Shown here in pieces: positions 2,939 to 53,767 of a stretch of DNA of 64,000 nt. The translations under genes and the position numbers were made by a program. Every line of letters begins with the position of its first letter. The stretch's first letter is position 1. The notes below the pieces were generated by a model that saw nothing but the letters and a program-made list of their open reading frames with translations, had not been told where the DNA came from and did not search any database. This DNA is from Alligator mississippiensis. Its lineage: Eukaryota; Chordata; Crocodylia; Alligatoridae. The stretch is taken from assembly GCF_030867095.1 (NCBI RefSeq), contig NC_081826.1, forward strand, positions 56,040,001-56,104,000, given 5' to 3'.

Positions 2939-4554
2939 CTACATATTTTATAAGCTGGTAATACAGTACGGATCAAGGTATTATCAGTTTCAACAGTCTT
3001 TGTGATGATGTAGCCTGACCCTTGGAACAGCCAGCCACCAAGAGGTCTGGTGCACTGTGACTACTGTAAACCAGGTATCAAGCAGACATACCCAACTCTG
3101 AATGGTGTCCAGTTTCTGTCTTGCTGCCATGGAATCAAGCAAAAAAACCTGAAGTTAGAACAAAATACATTTAATCCGTTATGCCCTTACACCAGGAACA
3201 GGAGGAAGACCCCAGGGCATGTCTGTTTCTGCCAAACTCTAAGATGATTATGCACAGACAATGCAATATGTAGTGAAATCTACATGGATACAAACTTGAA
3301 ATAAACACACTAAGGGTGGTATACAAATACCTAAATAAATTAGGTATATGACTCCTGTAAGTGTTTTCTTTTCTATGTGTTTTCCTCCTCAGAATAGCTC
3401 AGAAAAGTTAGTAATTGACTTGATTATAGTGATACCTGAATGAATTCCTACTGCCATTGATTTATACCATTTTTTCTTTTGTGACAGAGTCCAGCCAAGC
3501 AGAGACCAGAACACAGTGACTGAGAATAGTCTGGGTCAGCCAACCAGAGCTGCCTTGTGCCTTGCTGTTCTGTCCCCGGACAGACTGAGGAAGCCTGCAG
3601 AGCATGCTGAAATGTGTGCAGAGGGGCCCTGGCTGCACAGTGTCAGCACTGCAAGATCTCTGCCCTTCAAGGACTCAGAATTCAAATATCTGTACAGGTG
3701 TCTCTGTTTAGTTGTTTCTACCAGGAGAACAAACCAAGGAGAATTCTCACATGTCATCTGAATGTGTGTATAGAGCCAGAGAAAGCAAACTTTAAGACTA
3801 AGTCCTCTACTAAAATGTCTAGACATTCAAACTTAGAGAATGTCATCAAGAAAACCCTAGAAAATGACAGAAGGGGATTCTTTCAGGTAGTTTGTATAAC
3901 TTGATAGCAATCCCAGAACCTCCAGTTATACATTTTAAAAAGTGCAATAAAAACATCTAAGCTCTGACAATCAAACTGTTACTGCTTTGAGCAACATAAT
4001 AATATCCTTAACAGTAAAAGAACATACGCTGCAGATTATGTTCTCAGGCATACATATATATACACACACATATATATATACTAATTCTTGAACACATATA
4101 TATGTGTGTGTACAATACACATATACACACCATAATATATACATTATATACACATAATATATAATATATACTATTATAAACTATGCCCTCAGAGCCAATG
4201 GGAATGCAAAAGTAAAATTTAGAGCAAATACTGGTCAGCCAAACAGGTCACATGATATCACCAGAGCAGAAACCTACCTGAAGCTGTTTAAGGAAGAGGT
4301 GGTATAATTCTCAAACACTGTTGATCCCTGACCTTGTTAACTTCCAAAAAGTACTTTCCATTTTTGTCAAGTGCATACCTCATGTAAGGCCATCAATTTG
4401 CAAAGCTAGTTCCCCTTGAGAAACTCACTGGGAGATCCTGACTCCAAACAACTCACATGATCTGCAGAATCAAAATTCTTCACACATCAAGTACAGCAAC
4501 ATATTATAAAAGAGAACAAGTAAGGCTTTAAAATCCTTAAGAAACTGAACTCAA
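2939..4554. other. No gene; unique DNA with an AT/CA simple-repeat patch
   Basis: No recognisable gene or complete repeat. Around 4050-4175 there is a degenerate TA/CA-rich patch. Short open frames near 3516-3904 show no recognised domain. Composition is AT-rich up to about 4555, where it shifts sharply to GC-rich CR1 sequence. Confidence 0.5.
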
Positions 4555-4608
4555 AGTAGCGCACCCCCCAGGGTAGACAGTCCCAGCCGTAGCCAGCCTA
4601 CCTGAGGC

Positions 4609-5703
4609 ATGACACGGATGGGCACGCGCCGCACCCCGAGGGTCCCCTCGGGCTCCGCAGCCCCCCCCTGGCACCTCAGAGACGGCCACCCAGACGGAGC
4701 CCCTGGTTCCGGGCTCCACGCAGACAGAGCCCCTGGCTCTCAGCTGCGGGGGCTGCCTGACCCTTTTTCAGGCTCTGGGGCCTGGGAGCATGGCGACCTC
4801 CCCTTGCGGGGTCTGCTCCCTTTTGGGGTCTCTGGCACGCCAGCTGGAGGAGCTCCAGGCACAGTCCACAGACTGCGTGCCATCAGGGACTGCGAGCAGG
4901 AGATAGACTCCTACTGCCAGGCCCTTCTCCCCCGGGAGGCAGAGGGTAGATCACAGTCTCCCTCCAGGCCAGAGGAGGACTCTGGGACCTCCTGCTGTGT
5001 CCAGCCAGGGGCATGGACCAAGGTGGTCAAGGGCCCTAAGGCCCGCCGCACCAAGGCCCCACCCCCGCCACAACTGAGCAACAGGTATGCACCTCTTGCT
5101 GCCCCAGCAGAGCCTGCTGAGTTGCCGGCCCCCACAGGCAACATGGGCCCAACTGCAACTCCCGCCCCTGCTCTCCCCAAGACAAAACGTAAGGTGTTTG
5201 TTGTGGGAGACTCCCTCCTGAGGGGGACTGAGGGGTCAATCTGCCACCCCGACCCCTTAGCCCGGCAAGTCTGCTGCTTCCCAGGGGCCCGCATCCGGGA
5301 CATTGCAGAGAGGATCCCCAAGCTCCTCAAACCCACAGACCGCTATCCCATGCTCCTTATTCATGTGGGCACCAATGACACAGCTCGGAGCACTCCCAGC
5401 CAGGTCATGAGGCGCTACAGGGATTTGGGAGCGGGGCTTAAGGGTCTGGGGGCACAGGTGGTGTTCTCGTCGATCCTCCCAGTCTCAGGCTATGGGCTGA
5501 GAAGGGACAGGAGGATCTATGTGGTCAAACAAAGACTGCAGCGCTGGTGTCGTCAGGAAGGCTTTGGCTTTCATGACCACAGCCCGCTCTTCGGCGAGAG
5601 AGGCAGCGAGCTGCTGGGAAGAGATGGTCTCCACCTCTCTCCCCTAGGGAGGAGGCTCTTCTCAGCCAGACTGGCTGACCTGCTCCACCGGGCTTTAAAC
5701 TAA
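4609..5703 (+). CDS. CR1 ORF1 protein with SGNH/GDSL esterase-like domain
   Basis: A 364-residue open frame from the ATG at 4609; a second ATG at 4618 is equally possible. CR1-group ORF1 proteins are known to carry an N-terminal zinc-finger-like region and an SGNH-hydrolase domain, with proposed roles in RNA or lipid binding during retrotransposition. The hydrolase blocks are visible: GDSLLRG with the candidate nucleophile at S202, the glycine block FPGARI, GTND with N256, and DGLHLS with D339 and H342. Residues from about 88 (HRLRAIRDCEQEID) read as normal CR1 ORF1. Residues of roughly 20-86 are low-complexity P/G/R, and the expected Cys-rich and coiled-coil sequence lies in the +2 frame at about 4670-4867. 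This suggests two compensating indels. The last codons are TTA AAC followed directly by TAA, forming a slippery heptamer (see 5694-5700). Confidence 0.88.
   Translation: MTRMGTRRTPRVPSGSAAPPWHLRDGHPDGAPGSGLHADRAPGSQLRGLPDPFSGSGAWEHGDLPLRGLLPFGVSGTPAGGAPGTVHRLRAIRDCEQEIDSYCQALLPREAEGRSQSPSRPEEDSGTSCCVQPGAWTKVVKGPKARRTKAPPPPQLSNRYAPLAAPAEPAELPAPTGNMGPTATPAPALPKTKRKVFVVGDSLLRGTEGSICHPDPLARQVCCFPGARIRDIAERIPKLLKPTDRYPMLLIHVGTNDTARSTPSQVMRRYRDLGAGLKGLGAQVVFSSILPVSGYGLRRDRRIYVVKQRLQRWCRQEGFGFHDHSPLFGERGSELLGRDGLHLSPLGRRLFSARLADLLHRALN
4670..4867 (+). pseudogene. Out-of-frame remnant of the ORF1 zinc-finger-like/coiled-coil segment
   Basis: Read in the frame starting at 4742, this stretch gives SCGGC, then about 20 residues, then PCGVC, followed by SLARQLEELQAQ. 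That is a CxxC...CxxC pair plus a short heptad-like helix. It fits the known zinc-finger-like N terminus of reptilian CR1 ORF1 better than the P/G-rich frame used by the long open frame. The frame changes probably occurred at the C8 run (4661-4668) and at about 4866-4870, where one missing G would restore continuity into VHRLRAIRDC. Frame content was seen directly; the ancestral state is inferred. Confidence 0.6.
5694..5700 (+). promoter_or_regulatory. Candidate -1 programmed frameshift site (TTTAAAC) at the ORF1 stop
   Basis: ORF1 codons read GCT TTA AAC TAA, so the heptamer is T TTA AAC in the zero frame, the correct phase for a -1 slip (X XXY YYZ). Slipping gives TTT AAA CTA AGC..., which is exactly the ORF2 frame, open from 5679 (after a TGA at 5676) to 8351. 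After a 5-nt spacer, CCGCTGG (5706-5712) is complementary to CCAGCGG (5764-5770). CTGGGG (5709-5714) could instead pair with CCCCAG near 5794-5805, so a downstream structure is possible. No in-frame ATG exists before 6159. TTTAAAC is an established efficient slippery sequence in other systems; its use here is inference. Confidence 0.55.
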
Positions 5704-5819
5704 GCCCGCTGGGGGACGGGGGGACTACCGCCACTGCTGGCCCGCTGAACAATCCTTGCAAAGCCAGCGGATCATGGCACTCAAGGGAGCTCGCCCCAGC
5801 CCCAGCCCTGGTAAAATTT

Positions 5820-8351
5820 GTGGGCAAGGAAGGAGCCCCCCAGGGGGCACTTGCCTGCCTGTACACAAATGCCAGGAGCTTGGGGAATAAGCAGGAGGAG
5901 CTCATCCTCCTGCTCAGTGCAAACAATTACAATGTCATAGGGATCACGGAGACCTGGTGGGACTCCACCCATGACTGGACCACGGGGATAGATGGCTATC
6001 CCCTGTACAGGAGGGATCGTGTAGAGAAAAGGGGCGGGGGTGTAGCTCTCTATGTTAAGGAAAGCTACGCATCTCTGCAAGCCGATATTGGCGACCAGGG
6101 TGGACGGCTGGAGACCCTCTGGGTTAAAATCCGTGGGGAACACGGCACAGGGGACACAATGGTGGGAGTCTATTACAGACCTCCCACCCAAAGTCCTGAG
6201 CTAGACCAGGAGTTTGCCCAGGAACTGGCTGAGGCAGCTTGCTCCAGGATCATGGTTGTCATGGGTGACTTCAATTACCAAGACATCTCGTGGGAGGATC
6301 GCTCAGCAAAATCTGAGCGGTCGCAGAGCTTCCTCTTGTGCGTGGATGACCTCTACCTGACTCAAGAAGTCTATGGGCCAACGAGAGGCAAAGCGCTGCT
6401 CGACCTGGTGCTGGCTACTGGGGAGGACCTAGTCGGCGACCTAGTGATCGATGGGAAGCTGGGTGACAGCGACCACGAGCTGATCACCTTCACCATCCGC
6501 CGAAAAGCTGGCAAGTCGGACAGCAACACGCAAGTCCTTGACTTCAGGAAAGCCGACTTTGACAAGCTCAGGAGGCTTGTCAGTGAGGCCCTAAGGGACT
6601 GTGACCACAGGGAGAGGGGAGTTCAAGAAGAGTGGTTGCTCCTCAAGGGAGCGATCCTCAATGCACAAACTAAGTCTATTCCATCTCGGAGGAAAGGCAG
6701 CAAGAGGGCACAGCAGCCCCCCTGGCTCTCCAGGGACCTAGCAGACCTCCTGAGGCTAAAAAGAAAGGCCTACAAAGGATGGAGGATGGGAGTCACCTCC
6801 AAGGAGGATTATTCTGCACTGGTCCGGTCCTGTAGGGAGCAGACCAGGAAAGCCAAGGCTGCAACTGAACTCCAGCTAGCTTTGAGCATCAAGGACAATA
6901 AAAAGTCCTTTTTCAGATATGTGGGGAGCCGGAGGAAAAGCAGGGGCAATGTTGGACCCCTGCTGAACCAGATGGGGCAACTGACAACTGACGCCCAGGA
7001 AAAAGCCAACCTATTAAATAGGTACTTTGCGTCGGTCTTTCATCAGCCCCATGGGACGCCTGTGCCTGCTACAGGGCCGGGAAGTCCGGGTGAGGGTGAT
7101 CCCCTGTCCTCCGTTAATGCTGACTTTGTGAAGGAACATCTTGAGAAGCTGAATACCTTCAAGTCAGCCGGCCCTGACAATCTTCACCCCAGGGTACTCA
7201 AGGAGCTGGCGAGCATCATAGCCCAGCCTCTAGCGCGGATCTTTGAGAACTCTTGGCGCTCTGGTGTAGTGCCCGAAGACTGGAAGAAGGCCAACGTGGT
7301 GCCTATCTTCAAGAAAGGGAGGAAAGTGGATCCGGCTAACTATAGGCCCATCAGCCTGACTTCTATCCCGGGGAAGATCTTAGAAAAGTTTATTAAGGAG
7401 GCCATCCTTAATGGACTGGCCGACGCCAACATCTTAAGGGATAGCCAGCACGGGTTTGTTGCGGGTAGGTCTTGCTTGACCAATCTCATTTCCTTCTACG
7501 ACCAGGTGACCTATCACCTGGACAAGGGAGAAGAGATTGATGTCATATATCTTGACTTCAAAAAAGCCTTCGATCTGGTGTCCCATGATCGTCTCTTGGA
7601 GAAACTGGCCAATTGTCGCCTTGGGTCCCCCACGATCCACTGGCTGGAAAATTGGCTCCGGGGTCAGACCCAGAGGGTAGTAATTGATGCAAGTCACTCA
7701 TCGTGGTGTCCTGTGACCAGTGGGGTCCCCCAGGGCTCTGTCCTTGGACCCATACTATTCAACATCTTCATTAACGATGTGGACACTGGAGTCAGAAGCG
7801 GACTGGCCAAGTTCGCCGATGACACCAAACTTTGGGGCAAAGCATCCACGCCAGAAGACAGGCGGGTGAACCAGGCTGACCTGGACAGGCTCAGCAAGTG
7901 GGCGGATGAGAATCTGATGGTGTTCAACCCCGATAAATGGAAGGTTCTCCACCTTGGGAAAAAAACCCCGCAGCATCCTTATAGGCTCGGCAGTGCTATG
8001 TTGGTTAGCACTATGGAAGAAAGAGACTTGGGGGTCATCATTGACCACAAGATGAAAATGAGCCTGCAATGCGATGCTGCAGCTAGTAAAGCGACCAAAA
8101 CACTGGCTTGCATCCATAGATGCTTCTCAAGCAAATCCCGGGACGTCATGCTCCCCCTGTACTCGGCCTTAGTGAGGCCGCAGCTGGAGTACTGCGTCCA
8201 GTTTTGGGCTCCACAATTCAAAAAGGATGTGGAGAAGCTTGAGAGAGTCCAGAGAAGAGCCATGCGCATGATCAGGGGTCAGGGAAGCAGACCCTACGAT
8301 GACAGGCTGAGAGCCCTGGGGCTAAAAAGCGCAGGCTCAGGGGTGATCTGA
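5820..8351 (+). CDS. CR1 ORF2: APE-type endonuclease and reverse transcriptase (C-terminally frameshifted)
   Basis: Residue 1 is set at the GTG at 5820 for numbering only; the frame is open from 5679 and has no ATG until 6159. Residues 11-228 form the apurinic-endonuclease-like domain that nicks target DNA: N17 (TNARS), E44 (TETWW), D150 and N152 (GDFN), and D218-H219 (SDHE). Residues about 488-740 form the reverse transcriptase for target-primed reverse transcription: NYRPISLTS, LDFKKAFD with D579, GVPQGSVLGP, and FADD with D667 and D668. The C-terminal CR1 segment (YCVQFWAP, KLERVQRRA) follows. All catalytic residues are present. The frame ends in SAGSGVI and TGA at 8349-8351 because of a small deletion near 8320; the missing C terminus continues in another frame. 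A fusion with ORF1 by -1 frameshifting is the favoured start. Confidence 0.92.
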   Translation: MGKEGAPQGALACLYTNARSLGNKQEELILLLSANNYNVIGITETWWDSTHDWTTGIDGYPLYRRDRVEKRGGGVALYVKESYASLQADIGDQGGRLETLWVKIRGEHGTGDTMVGVYYRPPTQSPELDQEFAQELAEAACSRIMVVMGDFNYQDISWEDRSAKSERSQSFLLCVDDLYLTQEVYGPTRGKALLDLVLATGEDLVGDLVIDGKLGDSDHELITFTIRRKAGKSDSNTQVLDFRKADFDKLRRLVSEALRDCDHRERGVQEEWLLLKGAILNAQTKSIPSRRKGSKRAQQPPWLSRDLADLLRLKRKAYKGWRMGVTSKEDYSALVRSCREQTRKAKAATELQLALSIKDNKKSFFRYVGSRRKSRGNVGPLLNQMGQLTTDAQEKANLLNRYFASVFHQPHGTPVPATGPGSPGEGDPLSSVNADFVKEHLEKLNTFKSAGPDNLHPRVLKELASIIAQPLARIFENSWRSGVVPEDWKKANVVPIFKKGRKVDPANYRPISLTSIPGKILEKFIKEAILNGLADANILRDSQHGFVAGRSCLTNLISFYDQVTYHLDKGEEIDVIYLDFKKAFDLVSHDRLLEKLANCRLGSPTIHWLENWLRGQTQRVVIDASHSSWCPVTSGVPQGSVLGPILFNIFINDVDTGVRSGLAKFADDTKLWGKASTPEDRRVNQADLDRLSKWADENLMVFNPDKWKVLHLGKKTPQHPYRLGSAMLVSTMEERDLGVIIDHKMKMSLQCDAAASKATKTLACIHRCFSSKSRDVMLPLYSALVRPQLEYCVQFWAPQFKKDVEKLERVQRRAMRMIRGQGSRPYDDRLRALGLKSAGSGVI

Positions 8352-8605
8352 TGGCCACCTACAAGTTTATCAGGGGTGATCACCAGTATCTAGGGGAACG
8401 TTTGTTCACCAGAGCGCCCCAAGGGATGACGAGGACGAATGGTCACAAACTACTACAAGATCGTTTCAGGCTGGACATAAGGAAGAATTTCTTTACTGTC
8501 CGAGCCCCCAAGGTCTGGAACAGCCTGCCGCCAGAGGTTGTTCAAGCGCCTTCATTGAACACCTTCAAGATGAAACTGGATGCTTATCTTGCTGGGATCC
8601 TATGA
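8324..8605 (+). pseudogene. Displaced C terminus of CR1 ORF2
   Basis: Reading from 8324 in the frame of the ATG at 8351 gives KKRRLRGDLMATYKFIRG, the standard continuation after RALGL in CR1 ORF2. It runs on through FRLDIRKNFFTVR, VWNSLPPEVV and LDAYLAGIL to a stop at 8603-8605. The FSLE-type residues normally between LGL and KRRL are absent, consistent with a deletion of about 10 bp that also shifted the frame. The ORF2 frame instead stops at 8351. The ATG at 8351 is an internal codon, not a start. Confidence 0.85.
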
Positions 8606-8680
8606 CCCCAGCTGACGTCCTGCCCTTTGGGCGGGGGGCTGGACTCGATGATCTTCCGAGGTCCCTTCCAGCCCTAATGT

Positions 8681-8707
8681 CTATGAAATCTATGAAATCT
8701 ATGAAAT
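8681..8707 (+). repeat. CR1 3'-terminal (TATGAAATC)n tail
   Basis: About three imperfect 9-bp units end the CR1 element. CR1 uses such short 3' microsatellite tails rather than poly(A). The same motif opens the minus-strand copies at 18036 and 53318. Confidence 0.9.
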
Positions 8708-9545
8708 AGATACCAATAAAGATACCAAAATGCTACGAAGATACTAAAGTGCAAAAAGACTAGAAGTCATGTAACTTGGTGTACTGAAGAAGATTTGAGA
8801 AGATCTGAACAGTAGTATGATGGAAGTGAAACTTTTAAAAGGTAGGGAGAGCAGTACAGGGTGGGCGGGAAGGGATAAAAACAGGAATGTTGAGAACCGA
8901 AATAATTAGGAAAATGGGAAAGTAAAAGCATATTCTAACCTGAGAAGCAAGAGGGTGGGGAAGGAGAGCAAATATAGTGCAAAATGGGAAGAGATTGAGG
9001 AGAGGCTTTAAATATGGCTTTGCACAACTCTGTTCAGCTAACAATGGCTGATGAATTACTATATTTACTTGCATACTGTGCGGGCCGGGAGCGATCCGGG
9101 CCCTTTTGTGCACGCGGGCCATAGCCGGCAGCCCAGGCACGCGGGGTCGGAGAAGACCAGGGGCGAGCTAGAATTAGTCACGGACACGTAGTGGTTGATT
9201 TAAAGATTGTTTACTTACACCAAAGGTGGTCGTGGTGTAGGCTGGACAGTTTTCCAGGTACAGCTCCGCTTAAATCCTCGTTAGAGGACTACAACAAATT
9301 CGTTCTCTCCCACAGAGTTGTTGAAGCTCCGTGGGTTCGGTAGTTTCTCGTGCAGGAAGGGATACGTCTAGGAATCTATCGGTGACAGGGAGAGGCCAGA
9401 GGCTGTTCGGGCTCCTGTTGCCTTTTAAGAAATGCGTTGGGTCCGTGAGGATCCGCAGCGCTTAGAGATCTTCACACAGCGTGAAGTCTCCTTCTCCTGG
9501 TGTTCCTCCCATTTCTCTCCCACTTGGGCAGAAACCACACAAGCT

Positions 9546-17271: not shown

Positions 17272-18035
17272 CCTTATAATGTGAAGGCATACTATATTTT
17301 TGGTATCAATTAGTTGCTGTGGAAATTACAACAATATTATAAATCAAGTATATTACTTTGGATTGGAAACAAGGAGTAATAAAACAAGAACTCCAAGCAA
17401 AGATCCTGCTGTGAAGAAAATGCCTTCACCAGAAAGCAGGTTCACAGAATTACTCTATGAGAAATACTACAATATGGCAGCTGCCAGTCTCCACTTGACT
17501 GTCTCCCCTCCTGCTTTTCTTTTATACCTTCTTTCATTAGCAGTTCAACAGAGGTTGAGTTGGCCAGGTCCAAGTGTGACAGTGGGGACTGATCATAGAG
17601 GAAAGGGATGGAGTATAGAGACATTCTCAACCGCATCTTATCCCTGGCATTACAGTTTGTATTGGCATCCAATAAGGTATGTGACCAATGAAGAGAATAA
17701 GGAACAGCTCTGTCTAAGCATGAAAACAACAACAAAGTTATAATGCCAGTCATTTAGGATGAAAGAAATCATAGCAGGACTGATGTGACCAGAAAAGGTG
17801 ACAGGTCTAAGTTTGCAAAATAGTGACTCAATGGAACTAAGCTGCATAAACTAAATAAAACTGGTTTATTGTTTCATAAATTTCAAAATATCCTCAGCTC
17901 CTGAAGTTTATAATGGATTTGTGACTTCAGAGTTCCTTTTGAACGATTACTTGAAGTTAAATACAACCTTCTTCTGTATAACTTTTAAACAGCAGAGTAT
18001 TACTACTGCCTTAGGTCTTGTTCAGTCGATGATTT
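17272..18035. other. No gene; AT-rich unique DNA
   Basis: A short open frame at 17300-17743 shows no recognised domain. No repeat boundary was identified. Confidence 0.5.
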
Positions 18036-18125
18036 TCATAGATTTCATAGAGGTTAGGGGCTGGAAGGGCTCTTGTGAGATCATCGAGTCCAGCCCCCCT
18101 GCCAGAGGCAGAAGTCTGCAGGGAT

Positions 18126-18955
18126 CAAATTATGGGGACTCCTGCCAAGCCCCATCCCCTGCCTGCTCCCCCAGCCCCTCCTGACTCCTGCCCACTCCCC
18201 CAGCCCACCCTCAGTGGCTGCCCTGCCCACTCCAGCTCCTGATGCTTTAAAAAAAAGCCCCAACTTACTGGGTGCTGCCAGGAGGGAGGCCAATCTCTCC
18301 TGCTTGCTCCCTACTGCCCCATGCTGCATAGGGGGCTCTGCATGAGCCTCCTGACCCCACCTTGCTCCCCCAGCGCCCCCCCCCATGGCTGCCCCACCCA
18401 CCCCAGCTCCAGTGCTTAAAGGAAAAGAAAAATGAAAAAAACCCAGAACTCACCACCTCCTGCAGCAGCCTTGGAGCTTCGAGGGGCTTGTGGAAGAGCC
18501 CCCCACATGGCGTGGGGCAGCGGGGGTGGGGCAGTGGGGATTGCTCCCCGAAGGATAGGAACTGGTGAGTCTGGGGATTTGGGGGGGGGGGAGGTTCCTT
18601 AAAAGGCCAGAGCTGGGGTGGGTGGGGCAGCCATGGGGCAGGGGCTGGAGGAGCAGAAGGGGTTGGGGGACTCATGCAGAGCTCCCCACACAGTTTGGGG
18701 AAGTGGGGAGCAGTGGAGATTGCCCCCCCCATGTGGCAGCACCCATTTAGTTGGGGCTTTTTTTCCCCCCCCAAGGTGCCGGGAGCTGGGGTGGGCAGAG
18801 CAGCCATTGCTAGGGCTGGAAGAGCAGGTGGGGGATGGGCCTGGGTGATTCGGAGATTTGGCCGAATCAATTCGGGACAGTGATTCAAATCACTGAATTA
18901 AATCACTGTCCCCACAAATCAGCTGAATCCAAGCCCGAAACGAATACTAGCCTCT
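18126..18955. mobile_element. GC-rich foldback element inserted in CR1
   Basis: The C-rich left half (about 18140-18460) and G-rich right half (about 18480-18850) are imperfect inverted copies. For example, CCCCACCCACCCCAGCTC near 18392 pairs with GAGCTGGGGTGGGTGGGG near 18612. Beyond the right arm, 18874-18912 has perfect 12-bp arms GGGACAGTGATT and AATCACTGTCCC around 15 bases. Long open frames here, including 207 residues on the minus strand, are compositional artefacts. Exact ends and target duplication are unclear. Confidence 0.6.
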
Positions 18956-20274
18956 TCACACAGGCCTATTAGTTATTTCTTGTGAAGCCCTGGTGAACAT
19001 CTGTTCTCCAAGATCCTGATGCACCTCCCTGATATACTTATAGGCTGCCACTGAGTCCCCCCTGAGCCTTGTTTTCACCAGGCTGAAGAGTCCCACATAC
19101 CTCAGCCTCTCATAAGGCTTGCTCTCTTGGCCTTTCATCATATGGGTGGCCCTCCTCTGAACTCTCTTGACCTTATCCACATCCCTCCTGAAGTGAGGGG
19201 CCCAAAACTGGACACAGTATTCCAGCTGTGGCCTCACTAAGGCTGAGTAAAGTGGAAGGATGATGTTCCTGGTTTTGCTTGAGATGCATTGGTGGATCAT
19301 GCCAGAGTTTGGTTTGCTTTGCTGGCATTGCATTAGTGGGTCATGTTCATCTTGTGGTCAATCAAGACCCCTAAGTCTCTTTCGGTCGGGGTGCTAGCGA
19401 GGGTAGTACTGCTGAGCCTGTAAGTATGATGCTGGTTTTTTCTCCCAAGATGAAGTATCCTGCATTTCTCTACATTGAATGCCATCAGGTTTTGGTCCAC
19501 CCACTTTGCAAGCATGTCCAGGTCAGCCTGTATCCCCAGCCTGTCCTCCAGCATAACTGCCTTCCCCCATAGTTTAGTGTCATCCACTAAGTTTGCCAGT
19601 CCACATCTGATGCCCAAATCCAGATCATTAATGAAGATATTGAAGAGTACTGGCCTGAGCATTGAGCCCTGGAGGACTCCACTGGTAACCTTGCACCACA
19701 CTGGTTTGTTCCCATCAACTACTAACCTTTGGGTCTGACCCTGGAGCTAGTTCCCCAGCCATTGGACCATGAGGTGGTTGTGGCCAGAATTCCCCAACTT
19801 GGTCATGAGGACATCATGGGATACCAAATCAAAGGCCTTCTTGAAATCCAGATAAGTGACATCAACCTCATATCCCTTGTCCAGGCAATGCATCACCTGG
19901 TCACAGAAGGAAATGAGGTTGGTCAGGCAAAACCTTCCAGTCATAAAAACATGTTGGCTGGCATTCAGTAGGTTGCCTTCTGTTAGCATGTTGCAGATGG
20001 ATCCCTTGATAATTTTCTCCAAGATCTTTCCAGGGATGGGTGTCAGACTGTTTGGTCTGTAATTCCCTGGATCTTCTTTCCTCCCTTTCTTGAAGATTGA
20101 GACCACATGGGCTCTTTTCCAGTCTTCCAGTACATTACCCAAGCGCCACAAGCTTTCAAATATCTTGGCCATAGGGCATGCTATGATGTCCGCCAGCTCT
20201 TTTAAGACTCTCAGGTGCAATCCATCTGGGCCTATGGACTTATGGAAGCCAAGCCTCTCAAGGTGTTCTCTCAC
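18956..20274 (-). pseudogene. CR1 ORF2 pseudogene (reverse transcriptase part)
   Basis: Three successive minus-strand fragments cover CR1 reverse transcriptase and the C-terminal segment: GNYRPNSLTPIPGKILEK and LDFKKAFDLVSHD in 19747-20274, LFNIFINDLD and KLWGK in 19333-19701, and YCVQFWAPHF and RVQRRATHM in 18956-19333. Frame breaks at about 19333 and 19701-19747 and damaged catalytic motifs (LVDD in place of FADD) show it is inactive. Homology continues upstream to about 20690 in broken frames. Confidence 0.88.
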
Positions 20275-20690
20275 TTAATCTACATCAGTTGTGGACCCAT
20301 CTCCCAAGCCCTGGGTGCATTGTGTCCTGTCTGACAGCAGGACCCCCTTGGGCAGGTGGAAAACTGATGCAAAGTAATTGTTTAAGAGATTGGCCTTTTC
20401 TTGGGCATCAGATGTCAGCTGCCCCATTTGATCTCATAGGAGGCCAATATTGCTTTTGCTCTACCTCTGACTTCCCACATATCTGAAGAATGACTTTTTG
20501 TTATCCTTGGTTCTGGTGGCTAGCCTGAGTTTGGTTGCTGCCTTGGCTTTTCTGGACTACTTCCTACAGGTATGAGCTAGTGCTGAGTAGTCCTCCTTGG
20601 TGATGATTTTAGTTTTCCATTTGGTGTAGGCTTCTCTCTCTTTTTTTTTGATGCTGCCCCTGTATGGTTTCCTAAATTCAGTCTGGCTTG

Positions 20691-38388: not shown

Positions 38389-40287
38389 AGAGTCATAGAG
38401 TCAATGGACTGTAAGGGACTTGTAAGATCATCAAGTCTGGTCCCCTGCCATAGGCAGGAGGTTAAAGAGCTCAAACTAGCTAAACGAGGTGCTTATCCAG
38501 CCTTCTCTTGAACACCTCCAAGGATGGTGACTGCACCACCTCTGCCAGGAGTGTTCCAGGTTCTAGTTACCCTTATGGAGAAGTTCTTCCATATGTCCAG
38601 CCTAAATCTTCCTTTTATTTGTTTCTGACCATTGGTTGTCATCCTCTGAAGGAGTGCCTTCCTGACGAGTTGCTCCCCCAGATCCTGGTATTCCCCTCTG
38701 ACATATTTATAGGTGGCTATCAAGTCATCACACAGCCTCTTGTTACCCAGACTGAACAAGGCCAGCTCCTGGAGTCTCTCCCTCATAGGGCCTATCCTCC
38801 AGGCCCCTAATCATGTGGGTGGCCCTTCTCTGCACCCTCTCAAGTTTATCCACATCCTTCTTGAAGTCCAGTGCCCAAAACTGGGCAAAGTACTTCAGTT
38901 GTGGCCTCACCAATGCTGAGTAGAGAGGGAGAAGCACCTCCTTGGATCTGTTGGCAACACATCTGTTGATGCATGCCAGAGTTCTGTTTGCCCTGTTGGT
39001 GGCTTCCTCACACTATTGACTCATATTCATCTTCTGGTCAGTTGTGACCCCCAGATCCCATTCAGATGCTGTGCCAACCAGTGGGCTTCCGCCTATCCTA
39101 TAGTTGTGGTGGAGGTTCTTCCTACCCAGATGAAGGAGCCGGCACTTTTCCCTGTTGAACCTCATGCGATTCTGATCAGCCCATAGAACCAGTGTGTCAA
39201 TGTTGTCTTGGATCTTTACGCTACCTTCTGGTGTGCCTGCATTTCCCCACAGCTTGGTATTGTCCACAAACTTAATCATAGAGCATTCCACCCCCTCATC
39301 CAAGTCATTAATAAATATGTTAAAAAGCACGAGTCCAAGCACCAATCCCTGTGGGACACCACTGGAGACAGTCCTCCAGGATGAGGCCATCCCATCGATT
39401 CCAACTCTCTGGGACTGGCCGCTAAACCAGTTATCCACCCACCACACTGTAGGCTGGTCCAGGCCAGTACCCTCCAGTTTGGCTGAGAGAATTTCATGGG
39501 AGACAGAATCAAAGGCCTTACTAAAATCTATGGAAAGTCAACCTTGTCACCCTTGTCCAGCTGGTTAGTGACCTGGTCATAAAAGGACACCAGATTTGTT
39601 AGGAATGATTTACCCTCCACAAAGCTGTGCTGGTTGCTTCTTAATACCCTGTCAGTTAAAAGGTTGTGATTGATGGTCTCTTTAACAATTTTTTCAAAAG
39701 GTTTTTCAACAATTGTAGTTTGCAGGGTTATCCCTGCACCCTTTCTTAAAGATGGGCAACATGTTGCCCCTCTTCCAGTCATCCGGGACCACCCCTGAAT
39801 TCCAAGACTTTTCAAATATCTTTGCCAAGGGTCAGTCATGCTATGAGTTCAGCAAGTTCTTTCAGAACTCTTGGATGTAGGTCATCTGGTCCAGCGGCCT
39901 TGAAAATGTCCAATTATTCTAAGAGGACCCTCACCTGTTTGGGACTGATTTCATGTCATCTATAGGCTTCCCCATGTTCTCTGGGCCTGCGGATGGGTGA
40001 GCAGCTCCTATTAGCCTTCTGGAATACTGATGTGAAGTATTCATTTAGAAGCTCAGCCTTTTCATGGGGGTCAACTGTGGGCTGTCCCTCCATATTCAGT
40101 AGGGGTCCCACAGTGGAGCTCAATTTTTTTCTTGCTCCCCATGTACCTGTAGAAGGACTTTTTGTTGTCCCTTATTTCGGATGCCAGCTTGATCTCCATG
40201 CCTGCCTTTGCTTTCCATATCTCATACCTGCAGAGCCTGGTTATATAAGTAAACTCTTCTCTGGTTGCTGACCCTTCTTTCCATTGA
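38389..40287 (-). mobile_element. Degenerate 5'-truncated CR1
   Basis: The 3' tail begins near 38389 (AGAGTCATAGAGTCAATGG, then GATCATCAAGTCTGGTCCCC) and ORF2 homology runs to about 40287. It stops upstream of the reverse transcriptase at RYEIWKAKA/NKKSFYRYMGS-type sequence. The endonuclease domain and ORF1 are missing. Divergence from the 4555-8707 element is high, suggesting a different, older subfamily. Confidence 0.88.
38493..39839 (-). pseudogene. CR1 ORF2 pseudogene (reverse transcriptase and C terminus)
   Basis: Broken minus-strand frames at 39839-39528, 39447-39013, 38937-38743 and 38786-38493 (descending) cover reverse transcriptase and the C-terminal region. Visible motifs are NQHSFVEGKSFLTNLVSFYDQ (first part), VPQGLVLGLVLFNIFINDLD, LLPLYSALVRPQLKY and RRATHMIRGLE. 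The active-site box FADD is replaced by FVDN, losing the second aspartate, so it is catalytically dead as well as frameshifted. Confidence 0.85.
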
Positions 40288-52052: not shown

Positions 52053-53317
52053 ATCTAGAGCTTTGCATGTAGCAAGCTGTGTTGTACAAGCAGTAATATA
52101 TATTTGGATCCCATGTAAAACTATTGTTTGAATTAGAATATAAATATGAACAAAAATATACACATAAAATACCAAATCAATAAGTAGAAGGCAAACATAA
52201 AAATGTATGAAATATGTGTTGGAACAGGTACCTTACTTTTAAGTCACTCAGTTCATGTAAATGAGATATTAGTTTCAATGAACATTAGGAATGAATGAGC
52301 CGTTCAGGAGATTCCAACATAAATGCACCTTGTACAGTATGAAAGGTTTCAATTTTGCCATTTTCTAAACACAGAAAAATGTATCCCTCCAATTCAGAAT
52401 ATTGAATGTCTTATGGAAAGTGAAAGGTCATTTGTAACTGTCCAAAGGATTGATGGAGTTGAGATACCTCCTTGACCTTCACCCTGCACTCATAAAGAAC
52501 AGTCTCAGATGACAGAGCATCAGGCAAGTTTTCAGAAAATGTCTTTTCTTATTTTATATTGCATAGCAAGCTTGTTACCTGATATTTTTCATAATTGTAT
52601 GTCAAAATTTAATTACTGCATGTCTTCCCTCATTAAAAGTAAACTGTCATCTAATACTGCTCAGCTATGTTTGTGATTTGCACTAATTCAAGCATTTCTG
52701 TCTGCTTTTTGCCATTGTTTTCCATCTCAGTTTCTGGAATAATTGCTTTGGAGGCCCACACAAACAATGTCAAGGTCAAACCTTACAAATACAAAAATTC
52801 TTTTCTAATTAGTTATTGTCTGTTAAGGATGCACATTATAAAAACTGGTTTTGAGTGTTTTTTTCACAGTATTATAACCCTCACATAATACAAACAGGGA
52901 AAGCCTAAGTTTAGATGTTAAAACAACACTTTCACAAGATTTATGAAAACATGCAAGGTACTGCATTTTAATCCTCATACCACATGTTCAATCATGTAGT
53001 ATATCAATGGAAATGTATAGAGTATGAATTACTGACTATATGGTTGGAAAATAAGAGACAATTACTAAATGATCATTTCTTGTCTCGTGGTCCTATATTT
53101 TCTCATTCTCCCAAAAGAGAAAAACAAGGATATACTAATGTTCCACTTGCCAAAAATCAAAGGGACATAAAATCCATCTATCAAGTCCTGAGTATAAGGT
53201 GCTGTTTTCCCTACTCTCCTGAAAAGAAAGACAGACTGCTCAATTAAGAAAGAGAAAAATGGGGAAAAGTAGATGCAAGAGTATAAATTAGCATCTTTGT
53301 TGGAAGGGTTGGTGTTT
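52053..53317. other. No gene; AT-rich unique DNA
   Basis: Nothing recognisable. Confidence 0.5.
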
Positions 53318-53767
53318 CATAGTTTTATAATAGCTAGGGTCAGGAGGGACCTGAACAGATCATCTAGCCTGACCCCCTGCCACAGGCAGGAATGAATGCT
53401 GGGTTCACAAGACCCCAGACGGGTGATCATCCAACCTTCTCTTGAATTTGCCCAAGGTAGGGGTGAGGACCATTTCCCTGGGAAGTTGGATCCAGATTTT
53501 GGCCACCTTAACTGTAAAATATTGCCTTCTGATCTCTAACCTAAACCTATTCTCCATCAGCTTATTACCATTGTTCCTTGTCACCCCAGGTGGTGCTGGG
53601 GAGAAAAGAGCTCTGCCTATTTGCTGTTGATCCCCCCTGATGAGCTTGTAGGCAGCCACCAGGTCCCTCCTCAGCCTCCTCTTGCTGAGGCTGAACAGGT
53701 TCAGGTCCTTCAGTCTCTCCTTGTAGGGCCTGTCCTGCTGCCCTCTCACCAAGTGGGTGGCCCTCCC
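53318..53767 (-). mobile_element. 5'-truncated CR1 3' end with ORF2 C-terminal remnant
   Basis: The tail CATAGTTTTATAATAGCTAG starts at 53318, with the GGGACCTGAACAGATCATCT core. It is followed by the C terminus of ORF2 in an open minus frame from 53767 down to 53405: LVRGQQDRPYKERLKDLNLF, SLSKRRLRRDLVAAYKLIRG and NRFRLEIRRQYFTVKVAK. This portion is intact in frame but lacks all catalytic domains. The element belongs with 29512-29637. ACCAAGTGGGTG is repeated on both sides of the 5' junction (53749-53760 and 53772-53783). Confidence 0.88.

Follow-up and report, generated by a model that had tools for sequence, protein, structure and literature searches.

The question raised by this locus is how a CR1 retrotransposon translates its reverse transcriptase. 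The window, that is the whole stretch of 64,000 nucleotides analysed here (Alligator mississippiensis contig NC_081826.1, positions 56,040,001 to 56,104,000), carries a copy of this non-long terminal repeat (non-LTR) element, in which the second open reading frame (ORF2), for endonuclease and reverse transcriptase, is in the -1 frame relative to the first (ORF1). Among the transposed elements of birds, crocodilians, turtles and snakes, CR1 is the most abundant (PMC4316615). The papers cited here by accession were available in part, and in these parts the way in which CR1 translates its reverse transcriptase is not stated. We propose that CR1 ORF2 may be expressed by -1 ribosomal frameshifting on the heptamer U_UUA_AAC at the end of ORF1, a reading to which we give a probability of about 0.7. 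It draws on the site itself, its phase, its position just before the stop codon, codons that stay fixed across divergent copies, and the fact that the young family of the window copy lacks a usable AUG. The original prediction, made from the letters of the window, held the same mechanism together with a possible stem, and named conservation of the heptamer, its phase and the AUG-free leader as support. Its core comparative test was passed within the alligator genome, whereas the stem found no support and the AUG-free leader is not universal.

Slippery site and leader in the window copy

The heptamer T TTA AAC lies in the ORF1 phase at 5694-5700 with the stop codon TAA directly behind it at 5701-5703, as first read. 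Slipping one base back (TTT AAA CTA ...) enters the frame that is indeed open from 5679 to 8351, i.e. ORF2. TTTAAAC is the sole in-phase canonical heptamer across 264 ORF1 codon positions (4909-5700), and there is none among 814 codon positions in ORF2. Reading the window frame also bears out that no in-frame ATG occurs until 6159, beyond the Asn of the YTNARS motif and the Glu of the ITETWW motif of the endonuclease, two residues that are presumably catalytic, as in the L1 endonuclease. This ATG stands 70 codons past the Glu, which has the Glu of the L1 endonuclease as its counterpart in the alignment. There is no AUG at the ORF1 stop, and an overlapping or close ORF2 AUG of the SART1 type is absent, the in-frame ATGs beginning at 6159. 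The earliest ATG behind the ORF1 stop, at 5774, is not in the ORF2 frame, again as predicted. The idea that 5774 is the true start, displaced by an indel in the window copy, was dropped, since the window frame is kept by all 39 close copies and by 26 of the 31 others that are described below.

Copies of the window family

Two sets of copies were collected. The first came from a search with 5600-5900, of which the best 40 of 1754 first-look candidates were scored, the window included. The resulting 39 near-identical copies were thus chosen by likeness to the junction stretch itself, where they are at least 98.7% identical. All 39 have the heptamer, and in every one of them the frame read from it continues uninterrupted into the endonuclease motif, no AUG coming ahead of the Asn codon. 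An AUG at +465, the window position, is present in 37/39, in six of which another precedes it at +252 or +288, and 13/39 keep 973 codons open from the heptamer.

The second set is independent of the junction, since it came from a search with the endonuclease (6000-6300; best 40 of 463 candidates scored). Besides the window it gave 39 matches, one of them already in the first set, and the other 38 were fetched. The site is reached by 31 of these, and TTTAAACTAA is found in 31/31. As for the seven copies without it, five begin clearly downstream, L059 was unmatched, and L074, with a match from 5702 on, may have been truncated or have diverged. In 26 of the 31 site-bearing copies the endonuclease lies in the -1 frame (in L071 and L087 a stop occurs at the motif or ahead of it), and no AUG precedes it in 25 of these 26, the exception being L069. 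Variation within this young family was considered as evidence of constraint and dropped, as changes after insertion should be neutral and the first set had been chosen on 5600-5900. Shared variants in the window family were too few for a third-position test of the leader.

Other kinds of CR1 in the alligator genome

The site is also present in four further kinds of CR1, as sorted by eye: the P0005 type, a turtle-like kind (L113, L114, L118, L119, L120 and L122), an old kind (L110, L112 and L117), and L111/L115. The P0005 type is a second abundant one, 57% identical to the window in ORF2 protein; the alligator protein P0005 is encoded in the same genome with 100% identity over 911 residues. Ten of the 20 P0005-type copies fetched reach the site, the other 10 matching further downstream only. 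The site reads TTTAAAC in 9/10 and TTTAAAT in 1/10, the stop is TAG in all 10, and the endonuclease is open in the -1 frame in 4/10. L104, of this type, has a leader of 75 codons with no Met ahead of MGNKQ. Among the 50 P0005 matches listed, 15 have a stop-free frame of 1005-1006 codons, which suffices to pass through the heptamer; in copies that are open over a long stretch, the ORF2 frame extends past it.

With a turtle ORF1 as query, 119 matches were obtained, 115 of them extending to the last residue of the query, and 20 junctions were fetched, divergent ones being favoured. TTTAAAC before a stop was found in 15, TTTAAAT in three (L113, L114, L117), and a disrupted site in two. L115 has TTTAAAC with the ORF1 frame shifted upstream, and L113 has lost the stop. 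In the P0005-type copies L116, L121, L124, L125, L126 and L127 neither a stop nor a Met occurs between the heptamer and YTNARSM, and L113 and L120 are likewise free of both as far as YTN. In L119 and in L122 the frame is interrupted by a single stop, and no Met precedes the endonuclease motif. Stops are present in L110, L111 and L112, with the endonuclease still in the -1 frame and a leader Met in L111 and L112. Every alligator kind has at least one copy with the endonuclease in this frame. L109, an old copy chosen for its ORF2 match to turtle P0010, has no TTTAAA in the 801 bases fetched.

Codon fixation and possible coding signal

The last 28 ORF1 codons were tabulated for six representatives (the window copy, L116, L120, L111, L112 and L110), which were hand-picked, are related and have the site intact. 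Six columns combine an invariant amino acid with a choice of codons. His, Phe, Ala and Arg use two to three codons each; Leu is TTA and Asn is AAC in 6/6, and a T precedes TTA in 6/6. In the window copy TTA is a rare codon, with 2 of 30 ORF1 leucines (slip site counted) and 4 of 89 ORF2 leucines. The result is a contrast between columns and not six independent trials, and the 20 ORF1-found junctions give the fuller picture. Within these related, hand-picked rows, fixed TTA and AAC beside four variable columns indicate that the slip site is kept beyond the need of the encoded protein.

The leader of the P0005 type was compared in 18 copies, out-of-frame ones counted in. Third-position variants make up 12/25 of the variants shared by at least three copies and 13/63 of the rarer ones (Fisher p 0.017); with CpG changes removed the figures are 8/18 versus 10/52 (p 0.058). 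This third-position excess lends modest support to translation of the P0005-type leader.

Protein evidence from other tetrapods

The Ala-Leu-Asn C-terminus of ORF1 is present in 30 of 48 ORF1 protein matches, from alligator, turtle, bird, lizard and frog. Many of the 18 others are models cut or spliced ahead of the esterase end; the ostrich P0123 (ending LASLAT), P0145 and P0148 extend to the end region of ORF1 and then diverge, and P0166 resembles an unrelated hydrolase. For turtle and frog the evidence is the ORF1 protein end only. On the ORF2 side, FKL occupies the corresponding position in 16 models from stork (Mycteria) and in one from wall lizard. In 29 ORF2 models the endonuclease motif is preceded by more than 45 residues; 15 of them have the matching FKL, P0033 has an unrelated FKL, and 13 have none. 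If one and the same element encodes Leu-Asn in the ORF1 frame and Phe-Lys in the ORF2 frame, its DNA must be TTTAAA followed by C or T. Judged from these protein models, storks and a lizard therefore probably have the slip site. The comparison foreseen in the original prediction thus turned out favourably for the heptamer, which is kept with fixed codons in divergent alligator copies and implied by stork and lizard proteins.

No CR1 relatives were confirmed among the genome, viral and phage contigs searched; three viral contigs share a 16-base pattern with no CR1 match in them, and a second pattern matched none. Public annotations P0005, P0006, P0032, P0045 and P0087 (alligator, anole, duck and softshell turtle) begin CR1 ORF2 at MGNKQ, which lies downstream of the putative catalytic Asn, so that the endonuclease would be cut. 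CR1 ORF1 or ORF2 segments are also found in host gene models, P0004, P0122 and P0131, among which are an alligator cGAS isoform, a turtle C2H2 zinc finger protein and a turtle NUBP1 isoform; they reflect either exonisation or an annotation artefact.

Points against frameshifting

Several results weigh against the proposal. The endonuclease is out of the -1 frame in 5 of the 31 site-bearing endonuclease-found copies and in 6 of the 10 P0005-type copies that reach the site, as well as in the P0005-type L123 and L129, and the site is disrupted in L118 and L128. Such out-of-frame and disrupted copies can be explained by decay, but they give frameshifting no support. Two of the four in-frame P0005-type copies have a Met at codon 47. 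The six representatives share ancestry. The 0/320 changes at heptamer and stop across the endonuclease-found copies are no sign of constraint, because mutation after insertion should be neutral. The invariant Ala-Leu-Asn in the ORF1 protein alignment A2 was likewise dropped and is not counted, because its rows were picked from matches with this ending. Finally, turtle, bird and lizard relatives have an in-frame Met upstream of the endonuclease (MSVRGG... in a turtle, MEQRAC... in a lizard, MARPED... in a duck), a result that the original prediction had itself named as contrary if seen in other young copies, and AUG initiation is therefore possible in these relatives. From these sequences, the AUG-free leader is not universal; it holds for the window family and most in-frame P0005-type copies.

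The lack of a significant minimum-energy structure downstream belongs to the same side. Classical -1 sites usually carry one, and a stem between 5706-5712 and 5764-5770 had been proposed for the window copy. Its arms are present and complementary, but their pairing is not in the minimum-energy fold of 5701-5810 (z -1.58). The 90-nucleotide windows starting at 5701-5708 are insignificant in minimum-energy folding (z -0.54 to 0.51), and ten other copies have no significant minimum-energy fold just past the site (z -1.74 to 1.35). The stem was rejected as a stimulator on these grounds.

Other features of the region were noted beside this. Windows starting at 5640-5680, mostly upstream and overlapping the heptamer, have z about -3. 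About 100 nucleotides past the slip site, 5800-5889 has a strong predicted fold (-50.2 kcal/mol, z -4.2, the second lowest of 169 windows), covering the C-run/G-run stretch where 4 of the 31 endonuclease-found copies lose frame. Most aligned alligator copies also have a G-rich stretch from about 10 nucleotides past the heptamer; it could be coding, the protein reading like GEGD or GDGG.

Proposed mechanism and alternatives

In the mechanism that we favour, most ribosomes would halt at the UAA or UAG behind the heptamer and release an esterase-bearing ORF1 protein (ORF1p) ending in Ala-Leu-Asn. A minority would slip back one base and continue as ...Arg-Ala-Leu-Asn-Leu..., reading first the leader and then the endonuclease and reverse transcriptase. 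The product would be an ORF1-ORF2 fusion with the junction RALN-LSPLG (RALN-LGS in the P0005 type), made below the level of ORF1p. We infer the slippage itself, its rate, the fusion and the role of the fusion from the arrangement of the sequence. Because the stop directly follows intact TTTAAAC sites and no conserved minimum-energy structure was seen, ribosome pausing at this adjacent stop may be one candidate stimulator, which is speculation. A broader version, in which tetrapod CR1 reverse transcriptase would be made solely as a fusion through U_UUA_AAC, by a mechanism that predates the divergence of birds, crocodilians and lizards, with the adjacent stop rather than RNA structure as stimulator, we consider doubtful.

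The alternative that survives best, although improbable, is termination-reinitiation, in which the ribosome would finish ORF1 and restart nearby on ORF2. ORF2 is suitably placed directly behind ORF1, the turtle, lizard and duck relatives have the in-frame Met ahead of the endonuclease that a restart would use, and there are precedents, reported for SART1 and proposed for L1 (PMC5972666). In the window copy, however, there is no AUG at the stop and the next one at 5774 is out of frame, and no in-frame AUG precedes the Asn in 39/39 window-family copies or in 25/26 in-frame others. Reinitiation would also leave the fixed TTA and AAC codons unexplained.

A start of ORF2 at a non-AUG codon of the leader, e.g. 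CTG, appears somewhat less probable still. Near-cognate CTG codons do occur in the leader frame of the window copy, at 5709, 5745, 5808 and 5859, but leaders of different kinds align poorly and no common start was seen by eye. What is conserved is the heptamer, and the ORF2 frame of long-open copies extends beyond it.

Slightly behind comes the view that Ala-Leu-Asn and its codons are kept for protein function or as a nucleic-acid signal, the slip site being a by-product. The widespread Ala-Leu-Asn ending (30/48) makes a protein-level cause possible, but the fixation of TTA in 6/6 representatives, when this codon serves so few ORF2 leucines (4/89), and the endonuclease in the -1 frame in at least one copy of each alligator kind are not what this view would lead one to expect. 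Coincidence, or an artefact of one copy, might be suspected given that neither ORF of the window copy is intact, but it is very improbable because the site recurs in 31/31 junction-bearing copies not selected on the junction and in other CR1 kinds.

Features of the window copy

The coordinates are collected in Table 1. The window copy is not intact: judged against alligator ORF1 P0121, its ORF1 is divided over two frames (4613-4906 and 4606-5703), and its ORF2 departs from its own frame near 8300-8350. The family is young. The esterase domain of ORF1 matches PF13472 (3.5e-10), and the profile A2 matches 4c1b, 'ORF1-encoded protein' (4.5e-32), which we take to be the ZfL2-1 esterase treated in PMC3905857. 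ORF2 matches PF03372 (1.9e-15), PF14529 (4.8e-10) and PF00078 (1e-31); a single-sequence search of the PDB with the endonuclease gave zero matches. The element has CR1-clade traits, i.e. an apurinic-type endonuclease and reverse transcriptase in ORF2, an esterase in ORF1 and short tandem repeats at the 3' end. The name CR1 is a provisional assignment, which agrees with the amniote protein matches. The 3' repeat unit has 9 bases here, in contrast to the octamer TTCTGTGA of bird CR1 (PMC2612034).

Table 1. Features of the CR1 copy, in positions of the window
Feature	Position	Strand	Remark
CR1 non-LTR retrotransposon copy, both ORFs broken	4561..8706	+	4561 is where the query was cut; 3' end set at the last terminal repeat; best matches among 39 fetched copies 96.6-98.1% identical
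Frame with 3' part of ORF1: SGNH/GDSL esterase domain and Ala-Leu-Asn C-terminus	4606..5703	+	
Frame with 5' part of ORF1	4613..4906	+	stretches such as CGVCSLLGSLARQLEELQA common to alligator ORF1 P0121
ORF2 frame (endonuclease and reverse transcriptase), -1 relative to ORF1	5679..8351	+	890 codons open
Slippery heptamer T TTA AAC	5694..5700	+	in ORF1 phase
ORF1 stop codon TAA, adjoining the heptamer	5701..5703	+	
ORF2 leader without in-frame AUG, slip site to endonuclease	5704..5855	+	3' bound approximate
5' arm of the originally proposed stem, CCGCTGG	5706..5712	+	unsupported as stimulator
3' arm of the originally proposed stem, CCAGCGG	5764..5770	+	unsupported
Codon of putative catalytic Asn (YTNARS)	5868..5870	+	protein alignment
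Codon of putative catalytic Glu (ITETWW)	5949..5951	+	aligned with the Glu of human L1 ORF2p motif 'iqEThl'
First in-frame ORF2 ATG, within the endonuclease domain	6159..6161	+	
Three 9-base terminal repeats TCTATGAAA	8680..8706	+	3' end

Elsewhere in the window, older CR1 fragments are found on the minus strand at 18034-20606, 38579-39820 and 53315-53683, 64-82% identical to the copy described here; they span ORF2 and the 3' end only, and none extends to the ORF1/ORF2 junction. An Rfam scan of 4500-8800 gave nothing but a sub-threshold match to Chlorobi-1 RNA at 6901-6979 (20.5 bits versus a gathering score of 50), very likely due to chance.

Significance and comparison with known systems

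A conserved frameshift site, if true, would explain how CR1 reverse transcriptase is translated. It would set a fixed ratio of ORF1p to the ORF2 protein, as in retroviruses, and join an esterase to a reverse transcriptase. Annotations that start ORF2 at MGNKQ would then lose the beginning of the endonuclease. The CR1 site would also be a natural test case for the stimulation of -1 slippage by a stop codon. No account of frameshifting in CR1 ORF2 expression was found in literature searches or in the available parts of PMC4120745, PMC4316615, PMC3905857, PMC4255032, PMC1925062 and PMC2612034. The word 'frameshift' occurs nowhere in PMC3905857, the available part of which does not treat ORF2 translation, and the frameshifts mentioned in PMC1925062 and PMC4255032 are those of decay. 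The literature searched largely excluded older CR1 papers, and an earlier description may exist.

With regard to known systems, the ORF1 of the window copy carries an SGNH/GDSL esterase related to 4c1b, like the ORF1p esterases of ZfL2-1 and CR1. With mammalian cytoplasmic ribosomes, U_UUA_AAC belongs to the heptamers most prone to shifting (PMC5009743). The site of the coronavirus IBV type shares heptamer and phase with CR1; CR1 differs in having a 0-frame stop directly behind, no supported downstream structure, and a long interspersed nuclear element (LINE) of vertebrates as host element. SART1, with its UAAUG stop-restart, and L1, with unconventional initiation, also express an ORF2 located behind ORF1 in a LINE mRNA (PMC5972666), whereas the window family has a slippery heptamer and no overlapping or nearby in-frame AUG. 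The Drosophila element HeT-A is likewise a non-LTR element whose expression involves a frameshift (PMC5009743). However, the HeT-A frameshift concerns gag, and no reverse transcriptase is encoded, whereas in CR1 the shift would fuse ORF1 to the endonuclease-reverse transcriptase.

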